Of a stretch of DNA of 64,000 bases, positions 3,842 to 19,131 are shown piece by piece. Made by a program: the position numbers and the translations under genes. The notes beneath the pieces were generated by a model. That model was not told the DNA's origin and did not search any database. It was given only the letters and a program-made list of their open reading frames with translations. This stretch comes from Halomicroarcula saliterrae (lineage in GTDB: Archaea; Halobacteriota; Halobacteria; Halobacteriales; Haloarculaceae), in assembly GCF_031624395.1 (NCBI RefSeq), contig NZ_JAMQON010000001.1:1116001-1180000 (forward strand), given 5' to 3'. Numbering within the stretch: position 1 is the first letter of the stretch; every line of letters starts with the position of its first letter.

Positions 3842-6577
3842 TCAGTAGTCCACCGGCACGGCGTCGTCCTCGATTTCGTCCAGTACCCGGCGGTGGAACT
3901 CCGCGAGCACCGCGGACTCGTCCTCGGCGAGTACCACGTCGCTGGCCATCAGGGTCGCGAGCCCGAAGGCCCGGGGCGACGGCGAGTCGACTCGAATCGT
4001 CCCCACAGCGACCGCGCCGCGGTCGATATCGGTAAGCACGTCCTCGATAGCGGCGACGTTGAGTTTGTCCTGCAGAATCTCCCGGTAGGTCTCCTCGACG
4101 ACGGCAAAGTCGCCGAGGTCCTCGGCGAAGCCAAGCAGCATCTCCGCGGAGACCTGCTGCTCGCTGGCCGACTTCTCGTACCCCTTGTAGCGTTTGAGTA
4201 TCATCAGCGAGCGCGTGGCGTTGATGCGGAAGTACCGCTGGAGGAGGTCGGTCCCGTCGAGGGCCGCCCGCAGGTCCGAGCGCACGTCCGCCGGGTCGAT
4301 GTCGTCGACGATGCGCTCGATATCGACCTTGCGGTTCAGCGGCATCGAGAGGGTGAAGCCGTTGTCGGCGACGGCGACCTGGACGTTGGCGCTGGCCGCC
4401 TGCGCGACCCGGTAGGCCAGCAACCGCGAGAAGCCGTCGTTGAACCGCCGACCGTAGTTCGAGTGGACGTGGTAGTGGCGTTCGTACTCGTCGTGGTCCA
4501 TCGCCTCCTCGATGACGAGGCGTTCGTCCGTGGCGACGCTCTCGCTCCCCGCGTAGGCGACCTGTTCGCGGAACATCCGAGCGATGGCCCGGACGCTGTT
4601 CTCGTCGAGGGGGAACGTCCGCAGCCAGTTGCGCACCTCGGAGAGCCCGCCGGCTTCGAGCTTCTCCAGTAGCTCCCGCTGGAAGCCGAGCAGTTCGCGA
4701 CCGAGGTCGTAGGAGAGGGGCAGCCGCTCGGAGAACCACGAGGGCACCGTCGGCCGGGCAGCGGTCGGGTCGACGTACACCTTCGAGCCCCGGCGGTACC
4801 GGTACTCGTAGTTCGACCCGCCCAGGACGAACACGTCGCCTTTCTCCAGCGTGTCGAGGTAGGACTCGTCTAACTGGCCGACCCACTCGTCGCTCCCGCG
4901 GGTGACGACGTCGCAGGTAAAGGAGTCCGGGATGGTGCCGATGTTGGTCATGTAGATGACCCGCGCGAGCCGCCCGCGCTTGCCGACGAGGTGCTCGCCC
5001 ACGTCGTACTCCTCGTAGTGGTGGTCGCCGTCGGGCGGGTCGTTGGTGTCGCGCCAGATTTTCGCGTAGACGTTTCTGTCCTCCAGCCCGGGGTAGTCGG
5101 CGGTGAGATACCGACAGAGCTGTTCCCAGTCGTCCTCGGTGTAGTTCCGGTACGGGTAGGCCCGTTCGAGGATGCCCCTGACCTCGGCCTCGGGTCGGAC
5201 CGCGTTGATGGCCATCCCGTAGACGTGCTGGGTCGCCACGTCCTGTGGGTTCTCGGGGATGAACACGCGGTCGACGAACCCGTCGGTGGCCTTCCCGAGC
5301 ATCACCGCACACTCGACCAGCTCGTCGCGGTCCAGCGCGATGACACGACCCTCGACGGTCTCGCCGAGCTGGTGGCCGGCCCGGCCGACTCGCTGGAGCA
5401 GGGCGGCGACGGACTTGGGCGAGCCGACCTGCACCACGAGGTCGATGTAGGGCATGTCGATGCCGAGTTCGAGGCTCGTCGAGGTCGTCACCACGTCGAG
5501 CTCGCCGTCCTTGAGCGCCCCCTCTATCTCGTGGCGCTTGTCCTTCGAGAGCGAGCCGTGGTGACAGCCGGAGTTCCCCTCGTCGTAGTCGTCGTAGCGC
5601 TCCCGGAGGTTCTGCAGGACCCGTTCGGCCCCAGAGCGGGTGTTCGTGAACACGAGCGTGTTCGTGTGGTCCTGCACGTGCTCGTGGAGCTGTCGGTAGA
5701 ACCGGTCCGTGACGACGCCGCTGGGGGTGTCGATGAGGTCGTCGGTCGGGCAGGACAGTTCCACGTCGAGGTCGCGGACGAAGCGGGTGTCGACGATTTC
5801 GTAGGGGCGAGCGTCGCCGCCGGGCTCGTCGCGGCCGACGAGGAACTGTGCGACCGTCTCCCGGGGCTCGACCGTCGCGGAACAGCCGATGCGCGTCGGC
5901 GACGAGTCGGCCATCGCCTCCAGTCGTTCGAGCGACACCGAGAGGTGGGTGCCCCGCTTGTTCTCGGCGAGGCTGTGAATCTCGTCGACGACGACGTACT
6001 CGACGGTTTCGAGCTTCTTCCGGAACTTCGGCGAGTTGAGTAGTATCGCCAGCGTCTCCGGCGTGGTGTTGAGGATGTGGGGCGTCGTCTCCAGCATCTG
6101 CTGGCGCTCCGCGCTACTGGTGTCCCCGTGTCGAATCGCGTGGCGAATCTCCACGTCCTCGCCGCGCTCGTCCAGCTTCTCGGAGATACCTTCGAGGGGA
6201 ACGGTCAGGTTCCGGTGGATATCGTTGGCCAGCGACTTCAGCGGCGAGACGTAGAGGCAGTAGACGCTGTTGTCGAGGCTGTCCTCGCGGGCCTTCGCGA
6301 ACAGCTCGTTGATGATCGCGGTGAAGGAGGCGAGGGTCTTCCCCGACCCGGTGGGCGCACAGACCAGCGCGTTCGTCCCCTCGTGGATGAGCGGAATCGC
6401 CTCCTTCTGGGGCGGCGTGAAGAAGCCGCCGTTGCCGGGGACGAACTCGCCGAACTGCTCGGTCCACCACTCCGCGACCACGGGCGCGAGCCGTGAGAGC
6501 ACGTCGCCGTCGTCGATGTCGACGGTCGCCACGTCGAAGTCGGGCGCTGTGGCGTCCAGCCGCGCTCGCGGGTCCAT
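3842..6577 (-). CDS. Lhr-type ATP-dependent DEAD/DEAH helicase
   Basis: A 911-residue superfamily 2 helicase. Walker A is APTGSGKT (residues 74-81), Walker B is VVDEIHS (DEIH at 198-201), and the SAT motif appears as GCSATVEP. Further motifs include LVFTNTRSGAERV, TTSTSLELGIDMP and QRVGRAGHQ (motifs IV-VI). The long C-terminal part, with a winged-helix and beta-rich region (GDVFVLGGSNYEYRYRRGSKVYV), is characteristic of the Lhr core family. These enzymes are 3'-to-5' DNA or hybrid helicases implicated in repair; the E. coli and archaeal members differ in detail. The protein is cytoplasmic. The gene stands alone, facing away from the membrane-anchored regulator at 6671. Confidence 0.92.
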   Translation of the reverse strand: MDPRARLDATAPDFDVATVDIDDGDVLSRLAPVVAEWWTEQFGEFVPGNGGFFTPPQKEAIPLIHEGTNALVCAPTGSGKTLASFTAIINELFAKAREDSLDNSVYCLYVSPLKSLANDIHRNLTVPLEGISEKLDERGEDVEIRHAIRHGDTSSAERQQMLETTPHILNTTPETLAILLNSPKFRKKLETVEYVVVDEIHSLAENKRGTHLSVSLERLEAMADSSPTRIGCSATVEPRETVAQFLVGRDEPGGDARPYEIVDTRFVRDLDVELSCPTDDLIDTPSGVVTDRFYRQLHEHVQDHTNTLVFTNTRSGAERVLQNLRERYDDYDEGNSGCHHGSLSKDKRHEIEGALKDGELDVVTTSTSLELGIDMPYIDLVVQVGSPKSVAALLQRVGRAGHQLGETVEGRVIALDRDELVECAVMLGKATDGFVDRVFIPENPQDVATQHVYGMAINAVRPEAEVRGILERAYPYRNYTEDDWEQLCRYLTADYPGLEDRNVYAKIWRDTNDPPDGDHHYEEYDVGEHLVGKRGRLARVIYMTNIGTIPDSFTCDVVTRGSDEWVGQLDESYLDTLEKGDVFVLGGSNYEYRYRRGSKVYVDPTAARPTVPSWFSERLPLSYDLGRELLGFQRELLEKLEAGGLSEVRNWLRTFPLDENSVRAIARMFREQVAYAGSESVATDERLVIEEAMDHDEYERHYHVHSNYGRRFNDGFSRLLAYRVAQAASANVQVAVADNGFTLSMPLNRKVDIERIVDDIDPADVRSDLRAALDGTDLLQRYFRINATRSLMILKRYKGYEKSASEQQVSAEMLLGFAEDLGDFAVVEETYREILQDKLNVAAIEDVLTDIDRGAVAVGTIRVDSPSPRAFGLATLMASDVVLAEDESAVLAEFHRRVLDEIEDDAVPVDY

Positions 6578-7456: not shown

Positions 7457-7693
7457 GGGCATCGATAGGTCAAACGCGGTTTTGAGTCTCGGATGGACTT
7501 TTTGTCTCCCTCGTGGAAGCCATAATCGGGCCGTCACCGGGCACGCAGCCCACGTGTCCTTGCCCCCTCAGAGACGGCCACCCCCCATCGCTTCCCGGTT
7601 GGTTCCCGCCCTGAAGCCCCTCCAGTCGGCGTCCCCGCCGACGTCCCCGCTGACGCACCAACCCATTTGGCGCTCCACCCGCTTGTGACAGAC

Positions 7694-8455
7694 ATGCGAC
7701 TCACGTTTCTCGGCACCGGAAGCGCGATGCCGACCGGCCGGCGCGCCCAGTCCGGAACACTCCTGACGGCCGACGGGACGGCCCTGCTCGTCGACTGTGG
7801 CAGCGGCGTGCTCGACGCGCTCGCGCGGACCGATATCGGGTACGAAGGCGTCGATACCCTCCTGTTGACCCACCACCACCTCGACCACGTCTCCGACCTC
7901 GACGTGCTCATGAAAGCGCGCTGGCTGGCCGGCGAGACGGAGCTGACGGTAGCCGGCCCGCCCGGAACCACCGCGCTCGTCGAGGACCTGCTCTCGGTCC
8001 ACGAGTACATGCAGGACCGACTCGACCTCACGCTCGTCGACATCGAAGGGACGACGTTCTCGCTGGCGGGCTTCGAGGGCGAGCGCATGGAGACGCGCCA
8101 CTCGATGCAGTGTTTCGCCTACCGGCTCACCCCGGCGTCGGGCGGCCCGACGATAGCGCTCAGCGGGGACTCCGAGGCGTTCGCCGAGCTGGTCGAGTTC
8201 GCCGACGGGGCCGCGGTGCTCGTCCACGACTGCTCGTTTCCGGACGACGTGGACGTCTCGAACCACCCGACGCCGACGAGCCTCGGGGCCGCACTCGCCG
8301 GGGCCGACGCGGCGGTCGGACGGGTGTATCTGACCCACCTCTACCCGCACACGGAGGGACGCCACGAGGAGATGCTCGACTCGCTGGGCGAGGAGTACGA
8401 CGGCGACGTGCGCTTTGCGGAGGACGGGCTCTCGATAACGGTCGACAGCGTCTGA
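7694..8455 (+). CDS. Metallo-beta-lactamase-fold hydrolase, RNase Z-like subgroup
   Basis: A 253-residue protein with the metal-binding motif H60-x-H62-x-D64-H65 (THHHLDH), an early LGTGSAMPTGRRAQSG segment and LLVDCGSGV, both typical of RNase Z/ElaC-like and phosphodiesterase-like MBL enzymes. ALSGDSE and the late VYLTHLYPH supply the remaining metal ligands. The start MRLTFLGTG at 7694 is chosen over an ATG nine codons earlier because the fold begins exactly there. It lacks the long exosite expected of a true tRNase Z, so the substrate is uncertain. It converges on the histidine kinase at 8459 with only three bases between stops. No TATA-like element is obvious upstream. Confidence 0.85.
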   Translation: MRLTFLGTGSAMPTGRRAQSGTLLTADGTALLVDCGSGVLDALARTDIGYEGVDTLLLTHHHLDHVSDLDVLMKARWLAGETELTVAGPPGTTALVEDLLSVHEYMQDRLDLTLVDIEGTTFSLAGFEGERMETRHSMQCFAYRLTPASGGPTIALSGDSEAFAELVEFADGAAVLVHDCSFPDDVDVSNHPTPTSLGAALAGADAAVGRVYLTHLYPHTEGRHEEMLDSLGEEYDGDVRFAEDGLSITVDSV

Positions 8456-9727: not shown

Positions 9728-10795
9728 TCAGTCGAGCCGATACCGCAACAGCGCGGCGATACCACCGAGGTTCGAGAGCTGCTCGCCCGGCGCGAACTCC
9801 GCCGAGAAGACCGTCACGTCCCCGCCCTTCTGTTCGGTCGTCTCGATGATGTGGTCGACGTCGACGTCCCAGTCGCCCTCGTCGGCCCGTTCCAGCCGCA
9901 GCCGCTCGTCCAGCACCAGCAGAGTCTCGATAGCGCCGAAATCGGCGGCTTTGGCGACTTCCTCGGGGCCGTAGGCGACCTCGCTTCCCTCGCCGATGCG
10001 GGCCATCAGCTCGTCGATGTGGTCTGCCTCCTCGGCGATGCGGGTCTGCTGTTGCACGTCCTCGACGGCGCCGCGTTTCAGCACCTCGTGGACGCCGCGG
10101 TCGCCCACGGACGCGGTGTCGACGACGGTGATCTGCTCGGCGATGTCGGGAATCGCGTCGCCGAAGTAGTCCAGAGCGTCCTGCTTGGTAAAGCCCGGTC
10201 CGGCGAGGATGTACGCGTCCACGTCCTGTCGTTCGAGCACGTCCGCGAGCTCCGAGAACAGCTCGTCGCGGGGGCGGGCGTAATCGCCCTTGCCGGTCGT
10301 GGACGTGATGACAGCGCGCTCCTCGGTCCCGTACTGGGCCACGGTGTGGACGTGGGCCTCGCCCTCCTCGACCGTCGCGATGGCGACGTCCGGGTTCTCC
10401 GTGGCCTCGACCGCCTCGTCGAGCCGGTCGTTCTGGTCCGGCTTCCACCGTTTCTCGATCGTCAGCTCGGTGTGTTCCTCGACGTTGAGCGTGTGGTGAA
10501 AGCCCAGCTGGTCCTCCCGAGAGCAGTCGACGATGTCGCCGCCGACCCGCAGGCGGTTGGCGAACTTCGCGAACTCCACGTCGGTCACCTCGATTTGCAG
10601 CCACATCGGCTCGCGCTCGCCGCCCTTGTCCCGGAGCGTGTCGTCGTTGCGCTGGATGCGGCGGGTCGTATCCCCGGAGACGTGGTCTCCGGGCTCGACG
10701 ACGTAGGAGAGGTGCCAGAGGTCGTCGAGCGTCTCGGGGACCAGTTCGACGCGCTCGCGACCCTCGCCGGTGGCTTGCCGGCTCTTTATCTGCAT
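9728..10795 (-). CDS. pelA: mRNA surveillance protein Pelota (Dom34)
   Basis: A 355-residue protein starting [21 protein letters not shown], typical of archaeal Pelota. The N-terminal Sm-like domain (residues about 1-130) contains [10 protein letters not shown] and [12 protein letters not shown]; the central and C-terminal eRF1-like domains follow, with [19 protein letters not shown] and [25 protein letters not shown]. The GGQ of eRF1 is absent, as expected. Pelota binds the A site of stalled ribosomes and, with an aEF1A- or ABCE1-type partner, promotes subunit dissociation in no-go and non-stop decay. An ATG eight codons upstream is rejected because the family starts at MQI. It is downstream of two DUF4013 genes and RqcH, all on the same strand, so the block is functionally themed. 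Confidence 0.95.
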
Positions 10796-10833
10796 ACCCG
10801 AACTGCGCCGCCCGACCACAAGTGCCCTGCTAT

Positions 10834-11559
10834 TCAGACCGCGGGCCGGCCGGCAGCCGCTCCCTCGTCGCTCGTCTCCGAGGCGAGTTCAGTCTCCGCG
10901 ACGCCGGCGCCGATAGCGTAGGCGCTGGCCACGTTGCCGTAGAACGTGACGAAGGGGACGAGCACGGCACCCACGAGCGTGAGCGTGAGCGCGCCGCCGA
11001 CGACCTGCGCGAGAAAGCCGATGACGAGTGCGACCAGCCAGGCGACGACGTAGCTCCCGTCGGTCCCGACCCTCCGGAGCGTCGACGGCGAGAACGCCGA
11101 CCCGAATCGCCCGGTGCGGGCGTAGGCCGCCACCGCGGCCGGGACGAGGTAAAACGCCGCCAGCAGGGCGACGATTCCGAGCAGCGTGACGGCCAGCGAG
11201 ACGAGGACGCCGAAGACGGCGACGGCGCTGCCGCCGTTGCCGCCGACCCCGACACCCACACCGACCGGCACGAGCAACACGAACAGCCCCGCGACGAGTA
11301 CCGCTGTCGGTACGAGCACGTAGACGACGGAGATACCGAACACGACCAGTCCGTCGACGAGGAGTTCCTCCCACTCGTCGAACGCCGGCGCCACGTCGGT
11401 CTCCCCCTTGGCGACCTGCCTGATGACGCGCACCAGATAGCCATAGACGAACAGTATCGGGACGAAAAACACGCCCAGGAGACTCAAGACGCCGCCGATA
11501 GCGAGCGTCTCGACGTTCCGTTCACCGGTCGACGGGTACGTGATTGCGTCTTCGAGCAT
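10834..11559 (-). CDS. DUF4013 polytopic membrane protein (copy nearer Pelota)
   Basis: A 241-residue protein beginning [23 protein letters not shown]. It has an amphipathic N-terminal tail, then about five or six hydrophobic segments (for example [56 protein letters not shown]). The loops carry the family signatures [14 protein letters not shown] and [18 protein letters not shown]4013 proteins are integral membrane proteins of unknown function, common in haloarchaea and some bacteria. It is paralogous to the next gene (11695-12396): the same MxxxAxxYP start, the same FxxFYGNVAxAYAIG C-terminal motif and the same GxAFSPxxLR loop. Position between Pelota and RqcH, all on the minus strand, is its most informative feature. 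Confidence 0.85.
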
Positions 11560-11694
11560 TGGAACCTCCGTCACTGACCCCGGTCGTCGACGGTGGAACC
11601 GAACCACCGCGCTACCGCAGGTGACAGTAACGGCTAGAGGTTCCACGACTGCAAAAATAAACGTTTGCTAACAGTACACCGGCTACCGAACCGC

Positions 11695-12396
11695 TCAGGC
11701 CGCGGGCTGGCTGGCCGGGGCGTCGCGCCCGTCGTCGACGGCGGGCATCTCCCGGACCGCCGAGCCGATGGCGTACGCGCCGGCGACGTTCCCGTAGAAC
11801 GCGATGAAGGGAACGAGCACGGTGCCGATGAAGACGGCCCCGAGCGCGCTGGAGACGATACCGGCCAGCAGGCCGATACCGAGGGCGACGGCCCACCCGG
11901 TCGCGTAGGTCTTGCTGAACGCGAGCACGCGCAGTTCACGCGGCGAGAACGCCGCGCCGAGGCTGTCCGTGCGAACCCAGGCCACGACGGCCGCAGGGAC
12001 GATGTAGGCCGAAAGCAGCGAGACGACGAACACGAGCAGCGCGGCGACGAGGGCGATGAGCCCCACGACGAGGCCGCTCCCGGCGCCGTTGCCGCCCAGA
12101 CCCAGCGTCGCGCCGCTTGCGAGCACTGCGACCACCGCGATAGCCGCGGGAATCAGCGCGTAGACGAGACCGATTGCGAACGCCTTCGCGCCGTCGGTCA
12201 GCAGGTCGCCCCAGTCGTCGAACTCCGGCGGTTCCTCCACGCCGTTCAGGACGTGTCGGAGCGAGCGGACGACGTATCCGAACGCGGCGAGTGCCGGGAC
12301 GAAGAGGAAGCTCAGGAAGAGCAGTATCCCCCCGATGGCTACGTTTTTCACCGCGCTGTCGCTGTTCCGTGGGTAGTTTAGGGCTTCTTGAAACAT
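11695..12396 (-). CDS. DUF4013 polytopic membrane protein (copy nearer RqcH)
   Basis: A 233-residue paralogue of the neighbouring DUF4013 protein, starting MFQEALNYPRNSDSAVKNVAIGG at 12396. Hydrophobic spans include ILLFLSFLFVPALAAFGYVV, AIGLVYALIPAAIAVVAVL and VALGIGLLAGIVSSALGAV; shared motifs are GYVVRSLRHVLNG, GAAFSPRELR and FIAFYGNVAGAYAIG. Upstream on the minus strand an AT-rich TATA (CTTATATA at about 12480-12473) would start a transcript with a leader of roughly 50 bases. This copy therefore probably has its own promoter, separate from rqcH. Sequence similarity to its partner shows a tandem duplication. Function is unknown; association with ribosome rescue is inferred from location only. 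Confidence 0.85.
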   Translation of the reverse strand: MFQEALNYPRNSDSAVKNVAIGGILLFLSFLFVPALAAFGYVVRSLRHVLNGVEEPPEFDDWGDLLTDGAKAFAIGLVYALIPAAIAVVAVLASGATLGLGGNGAGSGLVVGLIALVAALLVFVVSLLSAYIVPAAVVAWVRTDSLGAAFSPRELRVLAFSKTYATGWAVALGIGLLAGIVSSALGAVFIGTVLVPFIAFYGNVAGAYAIGSAVREMPAVDDGRDAPASQPAA

Positions 12397-12497
12397 GATT
12401 GTCCGATACCCGGCGGCGAGTCGCCCTGTCACACGGCTCGTCGTCTTGTACCTACCTATACTACGACCAACAAGTATATAAGGTTGCGTGAGCCGTG

Positions 12498-14636
12498 CTA
12501 TTCGTCGACCATCCGGCTCCCGCCCGGGGGCAGGAACTCCTGAATCAGGTCGGGGCTGGCGACTTTCCGGACGAACGTCTCGTCCGTGAACCGTTCCTTG
12601 AACACCCGGTAGAGCCGCTTTGCGATGTCGTTCTGGGCGTACTGGCCCGGCTCGACGGCGACGCTCGTGGCGACGTCGCCCTCGATGGCCGCCGGCGGCC
12701 CGCCGACGACCTGCGTTCGGTCCTCACAGGTGATGCCGACGGCGACGCCGACCGGCGTGTCCTCGAAGTACGTCCGGTCGCCCCGCACGGCGAACCCGCC
12801 TTTCTCCAGATACTCGCCGCTCTCCGGGGTCTTCGAGACCTGGTCAGGGTCGACCATGTACACGTCGCCGGCGAACTTCCCGTCCTTCCAGACGGAGCTG
12901 TACGAGACGGCGAACTGCGCGGCCTCTTCCAGCGAGGACTGCGGGAAGTCGACCTCTTTCGCGGCCTCGCTCGGTCCGGTGGCCTTGAGTACGGTGACCG
13001 GGCCGCCGTGGGCCTGCGCGTGGAAGAACTTGTCACCGCCTTCGAGATACTTCTGGACCAGCTGTTCGTTGTCGTCGGCGTCCCGGCCGCCGATGACCAG
13101 ATAGCCGTCGGAGGTGTGGAACCACCGGAACTGCTCGTACCACTGCTCGTTGTGGCGGACCGGAATCGACTGTTCGGCGAGCCAGTCGGTCGGTTCGTCC
13201 TCGCTGTCGTCCTCCTCGGCGTCGTGGTCGCCGTCGTCGGTCGCCCACTCGTCGCGGCGCTGTTTGACGTCGTCGAGGTCCTCCCGGGTGTCCTCGATGG
13301 CCGCCAGCGCGCCCGCTTTTTTCCCCTCGATGCGTTTGGCCTCCTTGTACAGCTCGTCGGCGTTCTTCTCGACGCCGGTGTCGGCGTCGACGGTCACGCG
13401 CGTGCCGTCGATATCGAGCGTGACCGTCCCCTCGCTGCCGTCGACGCTCACGACGGCCTCGGCGGCCGGGATGCCCCGGTCGGCGCCTTCCGCGAACTTC
13501 GCCTCGATGTCCGCCCACGGCACGTCCGCCTCGCGGGCGCTCCGGACGGTCGAGAGCACGTCGTCGACGAGGTCGTAGTTGGCATACAGGAGTTCGGCCT
13601 TCTCTCGTTCGGCCTGGGCGTCGGCCTCGAAATCGTCGATGGCCTCCTGCTGTTGCCTGATGATGTGCTCGTACTTCGATATCTCGCTCTCGAAGTCCGG
13701 TCGCTGGGTCTCGCCGCCCTCGACCTCCTCCTCGCGTTGGAAGTTGTAGAAGTAGTCGTCCAGCGCGGCGTTGAACGAGTCGAAGCGCTCGCTGTAGCGG
13801 TGTTCGTACTCCTCCAGGGCGACCGGGGTGGCGTCGACGCGGCGGCGCTCCGGGTCGCCGTCCTCGTCGGTCTCGCCGTCGAGTTCCTCGTAGTACACCC
13901 GCGGGTCGAGGGGCCCCTCGGAGAGCTTGGTCGCGAACTCCGAGACCACCTCGTAGAGGCGGTCGAGTTGCGCCTCGGTGAGCTCCTCGACGGGCTCGTG
14001 GTAGTCGATGCCGGCCCGCGTACAGAGCTCCTCCCCGTAGAGCCCGCCGAAGTTCAGCTGCGTGGCGAGCGTGCGGACGAGGTCGGCGTCGGAGTCGCGG
14101 ACGCGAGCGACGAAGCCGTCGTAGTCGACGGTCAGCGGATTGAACCGCGCCGAGGGGAACTCGTAGGGGGTCCCCGGCGCGACGGTTCTGGACTTCAGCC
14201 GAACGGTCTCCAGACAGTCGATGACCTCGCCGTGGGTGTCGAGCACTGCGAGGTTGCCGTCCCCGAACAGCTCCGCGACGAGCGTCGTCGAGCCGTCCCC
14301 GCGCTCGAACTCCAGTTCGAGGATGCGGTCGAACTCGAACTGCTCGACGCGGACGAGGTCCGCCCCCGAGAGCCGGTTGCGCAGCATCATCGCGAAGTCG
14401 GGCGGCCGGCCGGGCGCGTCCGGGACGTGGTCCGCCGCGGCGACGTAGGCCCCCTTCACGTCGCCGAGTTCGATGATGAACTCCACGCGGCCCCGGTCGA
14501 AGTCCCGCAGCTTCAGCCGCACGAGGTCGTCCTCGGCGTAGAGATACGCCTTGTCGAGTTTCGCCCCCGTGTACTCGGCGAGTTCGGCCTCGAGGGCGGC
14601 GAGGTCGACGCTCGTCAGTTCCCGCTTGTGGTCCAT
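12498..14636 (-). CDS. rqcH: Ribosome rescue protein RqcH (NEMF/Rqc2, NFACT family)
   Basis: A 712-residue cytoplasmic protein. The N-terminal NFACT-N domain starts MDHKRELTSVDLAALEAELAEY, and the family landmark MMLRNRLSGADL is at about residues 84-95. A long coiled-coil region (about residues 270-370 and 440-485) contains YNFQREEEVEGGE and RIEGKKAGALAAIEDTREDL. The NFACT-R domain (about residues 515-640) includes RWFHTSDGYLVIGGRDADDNE, with the conserved GRDA..NE segment, and FFHAQAHGGPVTVLK. Homologues bind obstructed 50S/60S subunits with peptidyl-tRNA and, in bacteria, add Ala tails to stalled chains. It ends about 100 bases before the DUF4013 pair and Pelota. An acidic insert near residue 490 (DDGDHDAEEDDSEDE) is halophile-specific padding. 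Confidence 0.93.
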   Translation of the reverse strand: MDHKRELTSVDLAALEAELAEYTGAKLDKAYLYAEDDLVRLKLRDFDRGRVEFIIELGDVKGAYVAAADHVPDAPGRPPDFAMMLRNRLSGADLVRVEQFEFDRILELEFERGDGSTTLVAELFGDGNLAVLDTHGEVIDCLETVRLKSRTVAPGTPYEFPSARFNPLTVDYDGFVARVRDSDADLVRTLATQLNFGGLYGEELCTRAGIDYHEPVEELTEAQLDRLYEVVSEFATKLSEGPLDPRVYYEELDGETDEDGDPERRRVDATPVALEEYEHRYSERFDSFNAALDDYFYNFQREEEVEGGETQRPDFESEISKYEHIIRQQQEAIDDFEADAQAEREKAELLYANYDLVDDVLSTVRSAREADVPWADIEAKFAEGADRGIPAAEAVVSVDGSEGTVTLDIDGTRVTVDADTGVEKNADELYKEAKRIEGKKAGALAAIEDTREDLDDVKQRRDEWATDDGDHDAEEDDSEDEPTDWLAEQSIPVRHNEQWYEQFRWFHTSDGYLVIGGRDADDNEQLVQKYLEGGDKFFHAQAHGGPVTVLKATGPSEAAKEVDFPQSSLEEAAQFAVSYSSVWKDGKFAGDVYMVDPDQVSKTPESGEYLEKGGFAVRGDRTYFEDTPVGVAVGITCEDRTQVVGGPPAAIEGDVATSVAVEPGQYAQNDIAKRLYRVFKERFTDETFVRKVASPDLIQEFLPPGGSRMVDE

Positions 14637-17475: not shown

Positions 17476-19131
17476 CTACAGTCGCTTCGAGACGTACGGC
17501 CCGTCCTGCTTGTACCCCAGCTTCTCCCGGTAGTACTGCCGGACGCCGATGCCGGAGATGACGGCGATCTTCGAGAAGCCGGCGTCGCTGGCGAGTTCTT
17601 CGGCTTTCGCGAGCAGGCGCTTGCCGTACCCCTTGTGCTGGTGGTCGTCGTCGCCCGCGGTCTGGCCGACGCCGACGGAGTTGCCGTAGACGTGGAGTTC
17701 CCGGACGAGCGCGGCGTCCCGAAGCTCTCGGCGAACGGGGTCGTCGGGGAAGCGCAGCCGACAGAACCCGACCAGCACGTCCGTGTCGAAGTCCTCGAAC
17801 GAGATGAAATGCTCCGTGCCACCGCAGGCCTCGTAAGTCATGACGTCGAGTTCGACGTCTTCGGCGACCTCGTCCTTGTGGCCCGCCTCGCGACAGCGGA
17901 TACAGTCACACGACCAGTCGTGGTTCTCCATCTCCTTCCAGGCCAGCTGGCGGAGGTTGGACTTCCAGACGCCGCCCTCGATGAAGTCCGCCGGGATGTC
18001 GCGCTGGACCCGCTGGAGCCGGGTGTATCGGGGAATCATGTCCTTGATCTCGCCGACGAGCTTCGCGGCCTCCTCGTTTTGCAGCGGGTCGAAGTCGTTC
18101 TTTTTCCACCAGTCGTAGGTGACGGTGCCGGGGACGACGAGGGTCGGGTAGATCTTCAGGTAGTCGGGCTTCCAGCGCGACTCCGAGAAGAGGCGCCGGA
18201 AGTCCTCCAGACACATCTCCCTGGACATCCCGGGCTGGCCGGGCATCATGTGGAAGCCGACCTTGAACGCCGAATCCCTGAGCCGGCGGTTGGCGTCGAT
18301 GCTGGCCTGGACGCCGTGGCCCCGATGCATCTCCCGGTTGATGCGCTCGAAGGTGGTCTGGACGCCGACCTCGACTTTGGTGGCGCCCAGCCGGAGCATC
18401 CGGTCGATCTGCTCCGGGTCGCACCAGTCCGGCTTGGTCTCGAACGTGGTCGCGACGTTGCGCACGTCGGCCGTCTCGTTCTCGGCGACGACGTCCTCCA
18501 GATACCGGAACTCGTAGTCGTCCTCGGCGAAGCTGACGCCCTCGGCGGGCGAGGGGTCGGCGTCGACGTCGAAGTCGTTCATCGCCTCGATGGCCCGCTT
18601 GACGAACCACTCCTGGTAGTCGTGGCTCCGGGCGGTCATCGTCCCGCCCATGACGATGAGTTCGGCCTTGTCGACGGGGTGGCCGATCTCGCGCAGCTGG
18701 TTCAGCCGCAGCGTCACCTGTCCGTAGGGGTCGTAGTCGTTTTGCTCGCCGCGGGCGGCGGCGGGCTCGTGACCGGTGTAGGACTGGGCCGAGGAGAACT
18801 CCGAGTCCGGGCCGCCGGGACAGTAGAGACACTTCCCGTGGGGACACCGATGGGGCGAGGTCATGATGGCGATGGGCGAGACGCCCGACGCCGTCCGCAC
18901 GGGTTTGCGCTGGAGGACCTCCTCCAGCACCTCGCGGTGCTCCTGTGGCGCGTAGTCGAGCAGTTCGGAGTTCTGTGGGACCTTCGGGGCGGAGAACTCC
19001 CGACAGACGTCTATCTTGGCGCTCTCGACGTCGTCGCGCTCGACCTCGCCGGCCAGGATGCGGTCGACAAGCTCCGCACACACCTGCTGGAAGGCCTCCG
19101 TCTCCTCGGGGTCCGTCGTCTCCGTGCTCAT
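17476..19131 (-). CDS. elp3: Elp3: radical SAM/GNAT tRNA uridine-34 modification enzyme
   Basis: A 551-residue enzyme. The radical SAM cluster is C96-PHGK-C101-LY-C104 (CX4CX2C), followed by CPGGPDSEFSSAQSYTGHEP. The SAM domain continues with VMGGTMTARSHDYQEWFVKRA and VEVGVQTTFERINREMHRGH. A C-terminal GNAT acetyltransferase domain occupies about residues 400-551 (FDTDVLVGFCRLRFPDD, VYGNSVGVGQ, GYGKRLLAKAEELA). Archaeal Elp3 alone installs the carboxymethyl group at wobble U34 from acetyl-CoA. An additional Cys cluster (CDCIRCREAG, about residues 405-414) is characteristic of Elp3. The downstream SRPBCC gene begins nine bases after the stop. A TATA-like CTTATTC lies about 32 bases upstream of the ATG. 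Confidence 0.95.
   Translation of the reverse strand: MSTETTDPEETEAFQQVCAELVDRILAGEVERDDVESAKIDVCREFSAPKVPQNSELLDYAPQEHREVLEEVLQRKPVRTASGVSPIAIMTSPHRCPHGKCLYCPGGPDSEFSSAQSYTGHEPAAARGEQNDYDPYGQVTLRLNQLREIGHPVDKAELIVMGGTMTARSHDYQEWFVKRAIEAMNDFDVDADPSPAEGVSFAEDDYEFRYLEDVVAENETADVRNVATTFETKPDWCDPEQIDRMLRLGATKVEVGVQTTFERINREMHRGHGVQASIDANRRLRDSAFKVGFHMMPGQPGMSREMCLEDFRRLFSESRWKPDYLKIYPTLVVPGTVTYDWWKKNDFDPLQNEEAAKLVGEIKDMIPRYTRLQRVQRDIPADFIEGGVWKSNLRQLAWKEMENHDWSCDCIRCREAGHKDEVAEDVELDVMTYEACGGTEHFISFEDFDTDVLVGFCRLRFPDDPVRRELRDAALVRELHVYGNSVGVGQTAGDDDHQHKGYGKRLLAKAEELASDAGFSKIAVISGIGVRQYYREKLGYKQDGPYVSKRL

Follow-up and report, generated by a model that had tools for sequence, protein, structure and literature searches.

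Gene order and anatomy of the locus

The window analyzed here is a 64,000-nucleotide stretch of the haloarchaeon Halomicroarcula saliterrae (contig NZ_JAMQON010000001.1, positions 1,116,001 to 1,180,000), in which a four-gene cluster occupies positions 9728–14636 of the minus strand. In order of transcription, it comprises rqcH, two genes for membrane proteins of the DUF4013 family (PF13197; here DUF-1 and DUF-2), and pelA. A preliminary description had placed pelA, two DUF4013 genes, and rqcH here in a row on one strand, and our profile searches agree with it for all four genes and their coordinates. It is established that Pelota, the product of pelA, takes stalled ribosomes apart and that the obstructed large subunit is the target of RqcH/NEMF (PMC8373112, PMC8012679).

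The four genes are separated by gaps of ~101 bp (rqcH/DUF-1), ~135 bp (DUF-1/DUF-2), and 38 bp (DUF-2/pelA). The listed open reading frames overstate three of the starts (pelA to 10819, DUF-2 to 11646, and DUF-1 to 12432), and the likely inner ATGs of these genes (Table 1) align with starts in relatives. The pelA product scored only 65.6 bits against the eRF1 equivalog model, versus 311.1 bits against the Pelota model TIGR00111. Both DUF4013 proteins scored above the Pfam cut-off for PF13197, which is 26.9 bits. They are 44–45% identical to one another, share the motif FYGNVA(G/S)AYAIG, and, in the case of DUF-1, have their closest named relatives in Haloarcula and Halomicroarcula.

Table 1. 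Features of the rqcH–DUF4013–pelA locus, listed in order of transcription
Feature	Position in window	Strand	Evidence
rqcH (archaeal RqcH/NEMF), 712 aa, leads cluster	12498..14636	-	NF041120 811.9 bits, cut-off 400; NFACT_N and NFACT-R_1
Putative own promoter of DUF-1, TATA-like ttatatac, ~80 bp upstream	12474..12481	-	Sequence reading; TATA assignment putative
DUF-1 (DUF4013 gene 1), rqcH-proximal, 233 aa, likely ATG 12396	11695..12396	-	PF13197 129.0 bits; AlphaFold2 mean pLDDT 94.5
TATA-like AT-rich stretch upstream of DUF-2	11652..11661	-	Sequence reading; putative
DUF-2 leader hairpin, predicted	11560..11645	-	Perfect 9-base arms 11645-11637 and 11568-11560
DUF-2 (DUF4013 gene 2), pelA-proximal, 241 aa, likely ATG 11559	10834..11559	-	PF13197 122.7 bits; AlphaFold2 mean pLDDT 92.6
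pelA (Pelota/Dom34), 355 aa, likely ATG 10795	9728..10795	-	TIGR00111 311.1 bits, cut-off 177.65

Elsewhere in the window's genus (g1), most genomes have a gene of ~345 aa on the same strand between rqcH and DUF4013 (e.g., L076, 6023-7072). It is not present in the window.

Linkage of DUF4013 to rescue genes across haloarchaea

We examined the surroundings of the rescue genes in 145 haloarchaeal genomes from 58 genera and 10 families (coded), which were profile-searched for Pelota, RqcH, and DUF4013. Neighborhoods of up to ~16 kb around pelA were taken in 144 genomes, with G000 taken from the window itself, and rqcH neighborhoods were taken in 16 genomes with rqcH apart from pelA. pelA was above cut-off in 144 of the 145 genomes; the exception, G044, matches the C-terminal part alone. 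For DUF4013, the search of the genome set listed the best 150 of 296 matches, and a local profile was built and iterated from the collected copies, with the weakest final match at E < 1e-14. Every one of the 145 genomes has both pelA and rqcH, and DUF4013 was found in 120.

In 70 of the 145 genomes, a DUF4013 gene is found on the pelA strand no more than 6 kb upstream of that gene, a linkage conserved across 27 of the 58 genera and 7 of the 10 families. Chance alone would yield this in ~0.28 of 145 genomes, a figure that treats the genomes as independent and assigns all of them one mean size of 3.4 Mb. In total, 106 of about 296 DUF4013 copies are linked to the locus. The tendency of DUF4013 genes to neighbor pelA or rqcH, which the preliminary description put up for testing, is strongly supported, and the contrary outcome, DUF4013 genes elsewhere without such a tendency, is contradicted by what was found upstream of pelA. 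The same arrangement was seen in a named sample that included Haloarcula, Haloferax, Halobellus, Halogeometricum, Halogranum, Halorarius, and Halorussus, among others. The archaeal rqcH–pelA pair (NF041120/TIGR00111) is present at the window locus as neighbors in the order and on the strand seen in most other members of the phylum that we examined, but in 50 of the 145 haloarchaeal genomes one to three DUF4013 genes are placed between the two partners.

Since close kinship inflates counts of genomes, we used three controls: a ranking of neighbors, changes on a pelA tree, and the break-up of the cluster. In the ranking, DUF4013 was the most conserved neighbor of pelA after rqcH (27 genera, 64 genomes), ahead of an MBL-fold hydrolase (17 genera), ELP3 (16), and an Lhr-type helicase (12); these values are lower bounds, as the gene caller located pelA in 133 of the 145 genomes. 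By gene clusters, 85 DUF4013 genes near pelA were on its strand and 3 on the opposite strand. On the pelA tree, the DUF4013–pelA linkage changed at least 16 times and the rqcH–pelA linkage at least 19 times, and DUF4013 is therefore about as firmly attached to pelA as rqcH is. Where the cluster has broken up, DUF4013 often remained with a rescue gene: 20 of the 70 linked genomes keep it beside pelA although rqcH is absent from the surrounding 8 kb. In two of the 16 separated rqcH regions (G049 and G066), rqcH has moved away from pelA and a DUF4013 gene follows it by 3 bp.

Spacing at these loci is operon-like. At 64 of 144 loci, fewer than 400 bp separate the DUF4013 stop from the start of pelA, with a median of 57 bp. 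Of 15 genomes in genus g13, 11 have a gap of exactly 25 bp, and an AT-rich box precedes the DUF4013 gene there. From this spacing, DUF4013 and pelA are likely co-transcribed in many genomes.

The surroundings of pelA are also rich in RNA and translation genes, with the helicase, the RNase Z-like hydrolase, and ELP3 recurring. Their counterparts in the window are the Lhr-type helicase at 3842-6577, the RNase Z-like MBL hydrolase at 7667-8455, and ELP3 at 17476-19131.

Copy number, predicted topology, and leaders of DUF4013

Copy number at the linked locus varies, with one DUF4013 gene in 42 genomes, two in 20, and three in 8. The earlier suggestion of two cooperating subunits therefore does not hold as a general design. 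The tandem in the window is better viewed as lineage-specific: in a quick tree with several long branches, the pair falls in a clade of 11 rows, all from Haloarculaceae, with SH-aLRT support of 98, and it is thus probably a recent duplication. The shared motif FYGNVAxAYAIG, which had been taken as a sign of cooperation, is present in both copies but does not extend to the family. Across an alignment of 69 relatives, its F and Y alone are invariant and a G near its end is conserved in at least 90%, so that the full motif is confined to near relatives. Some linked copies, mainly in family f4, carry acid-rich C-terminal tails of at least 55 residues. Among 37 such tails, a VQxGRxV-like motif occurs in 25 and an FxW motif in 24, each in 8 genera, and these motifs could serve as docking sites.

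AlphaFold2 gave confident models of DUF-1 and DUF-2, in which short helices at the N-terminus are joined by two long ones and by another helical hairpin. In the 69 relatives, the N-terminus, loops 51–61 and 144–161, and the C-terminus hold nearly all charged residues, and the turns on the opposite side hold almost none. On these predictions, DUF4013 is probably a multi-hairpin membrane protein with cytosolic termini; the charged side would be cytosolic, and both paralogs would be oriented alike. An antiparallel pairing of paralogs in dual topology, as in CysZ, was considered and set aside, since both copies have the same distribution of loop charges and opposite orientations are therefore not supported. 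A Pfam scan of the 69 relatives returned DUF4013 in all of them and no other convincing family. A sequence search against solved structures gave no convincing match (best E 0.02), and Foldseek with the DUF-1 model gave no match at E < 1.

The DUF-2 leader is predicted to be structured. The region 11530-11652 folds at -52.5 kcal/mol (z -2.45, with 4 of 200 shuffles as stable), and the second arm of its hairpin (11568-11560) covers a Shine-Dalgarno-like GGAGG beside the ATG. Mean z for predicted leader structure was -1.31 for linked rqcH-proximal DUF4013 genes (n = 45), against -0.15 for unlinked genes (n = 34) and -0.12 for pelA interiors (n = 88). The leaders show hardly any covariation (1 of 21 pairs) and give poor alignments; we therefore do not propose an RNA element here. 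Individual rqcH-proximal leaders (L251-L329) have strong predicted hairpins over Shine-Dalgarno-like sequences, and translational control is a possible role for these.

Possible function of the locus-linked DUF4013 proteins

The strength with which DUF4013 neighbors pelA and rqcH makes a link to ribosome rescue plausible, and a membrane-protein gene that travels with either one would most economically mark a site where rescue factors meet the membrane. Our preferred reading, which we hold tentatively and at somewhat less than even confidence, is that the window locus is a haloarchaeal ribosome-rescue gene cluster with DUF4013 as its functional partner at the membrane. An ancestral rqcH–pelA operon would have gained one to three DUF4013 membrane-protein genes, probably co-transcribed with pelA, and their products would work with the rescue and ribosome-associated quality control machinery at the cytoplasmic membrane. 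The multi-hairpin domain, with its cytosolic termini, might receive or hold ribosomes or split large subunits, the ribosomes concerned being those stalled while making secreted or membrane proteins, and Pelota and RqcH would thereby act at the membrane. The mechanism is the weakest part of this proposal. That the locus-linked proteins are receptors drawing stalled ribosomes, split 50S subunits, or Pelota and RqcH themselves to the membrane, through the cytosolic face and, in long-tailed members, the tail motifs, is a specific version that we think unlikely.

Several observations weigh against a tight bond between DUF4013 and rescue. Linkage to pelA is missing in 75 of the 145 genomes, including all 36 of family f3, none of which has an upstream same-strand DUF4013 gene. 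In 25 of the 145 genomes, pelA and rqcH are present and DUF4013 was not detected, so the three do not always occur together and DUF4013 is not essential to rescue; its losses in haloarchaea are common. Most copies (~190 of 296) are located elsewhere, and several DUF4013 genes have a TATA-like box of their own. Loss of the rqcH linkage was not a significant predictor of loss of the DUF4013 linkage (paired test, median p 0.125). The window copies have short tails that carry neither the VQxGRxV-like nor the FxW motif.

To the same side belongs a comparison, made by hand, with 61 DUF4013-bearing genomes from the same phylum but outside the class. No DUF4013 match listed for these genomes has pelA or rqcH within 10 kb; for 7 of the 61 no DUF4013 row was listed, and some others had extra copies beyond those listed. 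The family as a whole is therefore not a rescue family. Both window proteins and all 69 aligned relatives match it, and in this sample the rescue-gene linkage is specific to haloarchaea. In 48 of the 61 genomes (G147 and 47 others, by hand count), the two rescue genes share a strand with 6–225 bp between them, which makes rqcH–pelA a widespread two-gene rescue operon outside haloarchaea. With this tight pair present and no listed DUF4013 gene nearby, the simplest history is probably that of an ancestral rqcH–pelA pair that acquired DUF4013 genes by insertion within haloarchaea. Outside the class, tandem DUF4013 arrays of three to four genes also occur away from pelA and rqcH (G212:C17, G296:C3, G299:C14, G238:C1, and G200:C11).

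The main rival to a rescue partner is a positional passenger, in which an early haloarchaeon acquired general membrane genes, concerned with the envelope or stress, in the interval separating rqcH from pelA, and these genes have no functional tie to rescue. Their position would persist because pelA came to depend on the DUF4013 promoter, making loss costly. This would suit the close spacing of pelA behind DUF4013 and the AT-rich box upstream of DUF4013 in g13 and g16, as well as the unlinked state of DUF4013 in other archaea and of most haloarchaeal copies, and the retention of pelA and rqcH in genomes without DUF4013. A passenger fits less well with a partner that varies, being pelA alone in 20 genomes and rqcH alone in G049 and G066, or with copies that have multiplied on site to two or three in 28 of 70 genomes. 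Linked copies also bear distinctive conserved tails, and their linkage is as stable as that of rqcH to pelA. On balance we regard the passenger explanation as somewhat unlikely.

Two further explanations assign DUF4013 another membrane activity, and we consider both improbable. If it were a channel or transporter with a CysZ-like fold, its substrate would be an ion or a small solute, and it might serve a stress response that is regulated together with rescue. CysZ provided the top two of 379 aligned chains for the DUF-1 model (6d79, Z 8.6, root-mean-square deviation 3.9, 172 aligned; 6d9z, Z 8.2, deviation 3.7, 176 aligned), and both alignments cover model residues 1–217. However, Z values of 8–9 are ordinary for helical bundles according to the aligner's own guidance, Foldseek did not recover the match, and CysZ did not recur among the 276 chains for DUF-2. 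By sequence, the 69-row DUF4013 alignment gave a profile probability of 0.1 against one E. coli CysZ sequence, and the CysZ/EI24 family PF07264 was not among the families shown in the Pfam scans of the 69 members. CysZ forms antiparallel dual-topology dimers (PMC5967866), whereas the window copies share one charge pattern. The likeness of DUF4013 to CysZ amounts to a weak match in overall structure for the DUF-1 model, with no sequence relation detected in these comparisons. We take it as a weak hint at the fold and do not assign DUF4013 to the EI24 family on this basis. An insertase or holdase would act downstream of RqcH instead of as a tether, shielding or extracting hydrophobic nascent chains freed by rescue and passing them to a protease. 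It draws on the same neighborhood evidence as our preferred reading, and a membrane domain built of hairpins, its charged face probably cytosolic, would be compatible with it. Against it, no YidC/Oxa1-type family was among those shown in the Pfam scans of the 69 members, and EMC6 appeared in one member only (E 0.67).

Returning to DUF4013 as a rescue partner, the conserved linkage suggests, short of proof, that haloarchaeal rescue has a membrane-bound component. In the literature searched, mostly titles and listings with few subscription journals, we found no paper on an association between DUF4013 and rescue genes and no function for DUF4013; PF13197 was not named, and the one study naming DUF4013 concerns cotton traits and is, by its title, unrelated. 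As far as we searched, the gene families are known individually and the conserved insertion of membrane genes into a rescue operon is apparently undescribed. A conserved membrane family tied to pelA and rqcH offers a specific candidate accessory factor whose genes can be deleted, and raises the question of how ribosomes that stall at the membrane are cleared in archaea. If the receptor version is correct, part of the ribosome-rescue system of haloarchaea would be embedded in the membrane. Species of Haloferax and Haloarcula carry the arrangement and are experimentally workable.

Unlinked DUF4013 copies at six loci (L290, L291, L296, L299, L302, and L327) have mixed neighbors that gave no functional clue. 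The search for another membrane family, DUF7544 (PF24400), covered 11 genomes. In two Halorubrum genomes (L290:7781-8401 and L299:7754-8374), a GTPase matching "50S ribosome-binding GTPase" (PF01926) lies within ~70 bp after an unlinked DUF4013 gene, on the same strand.

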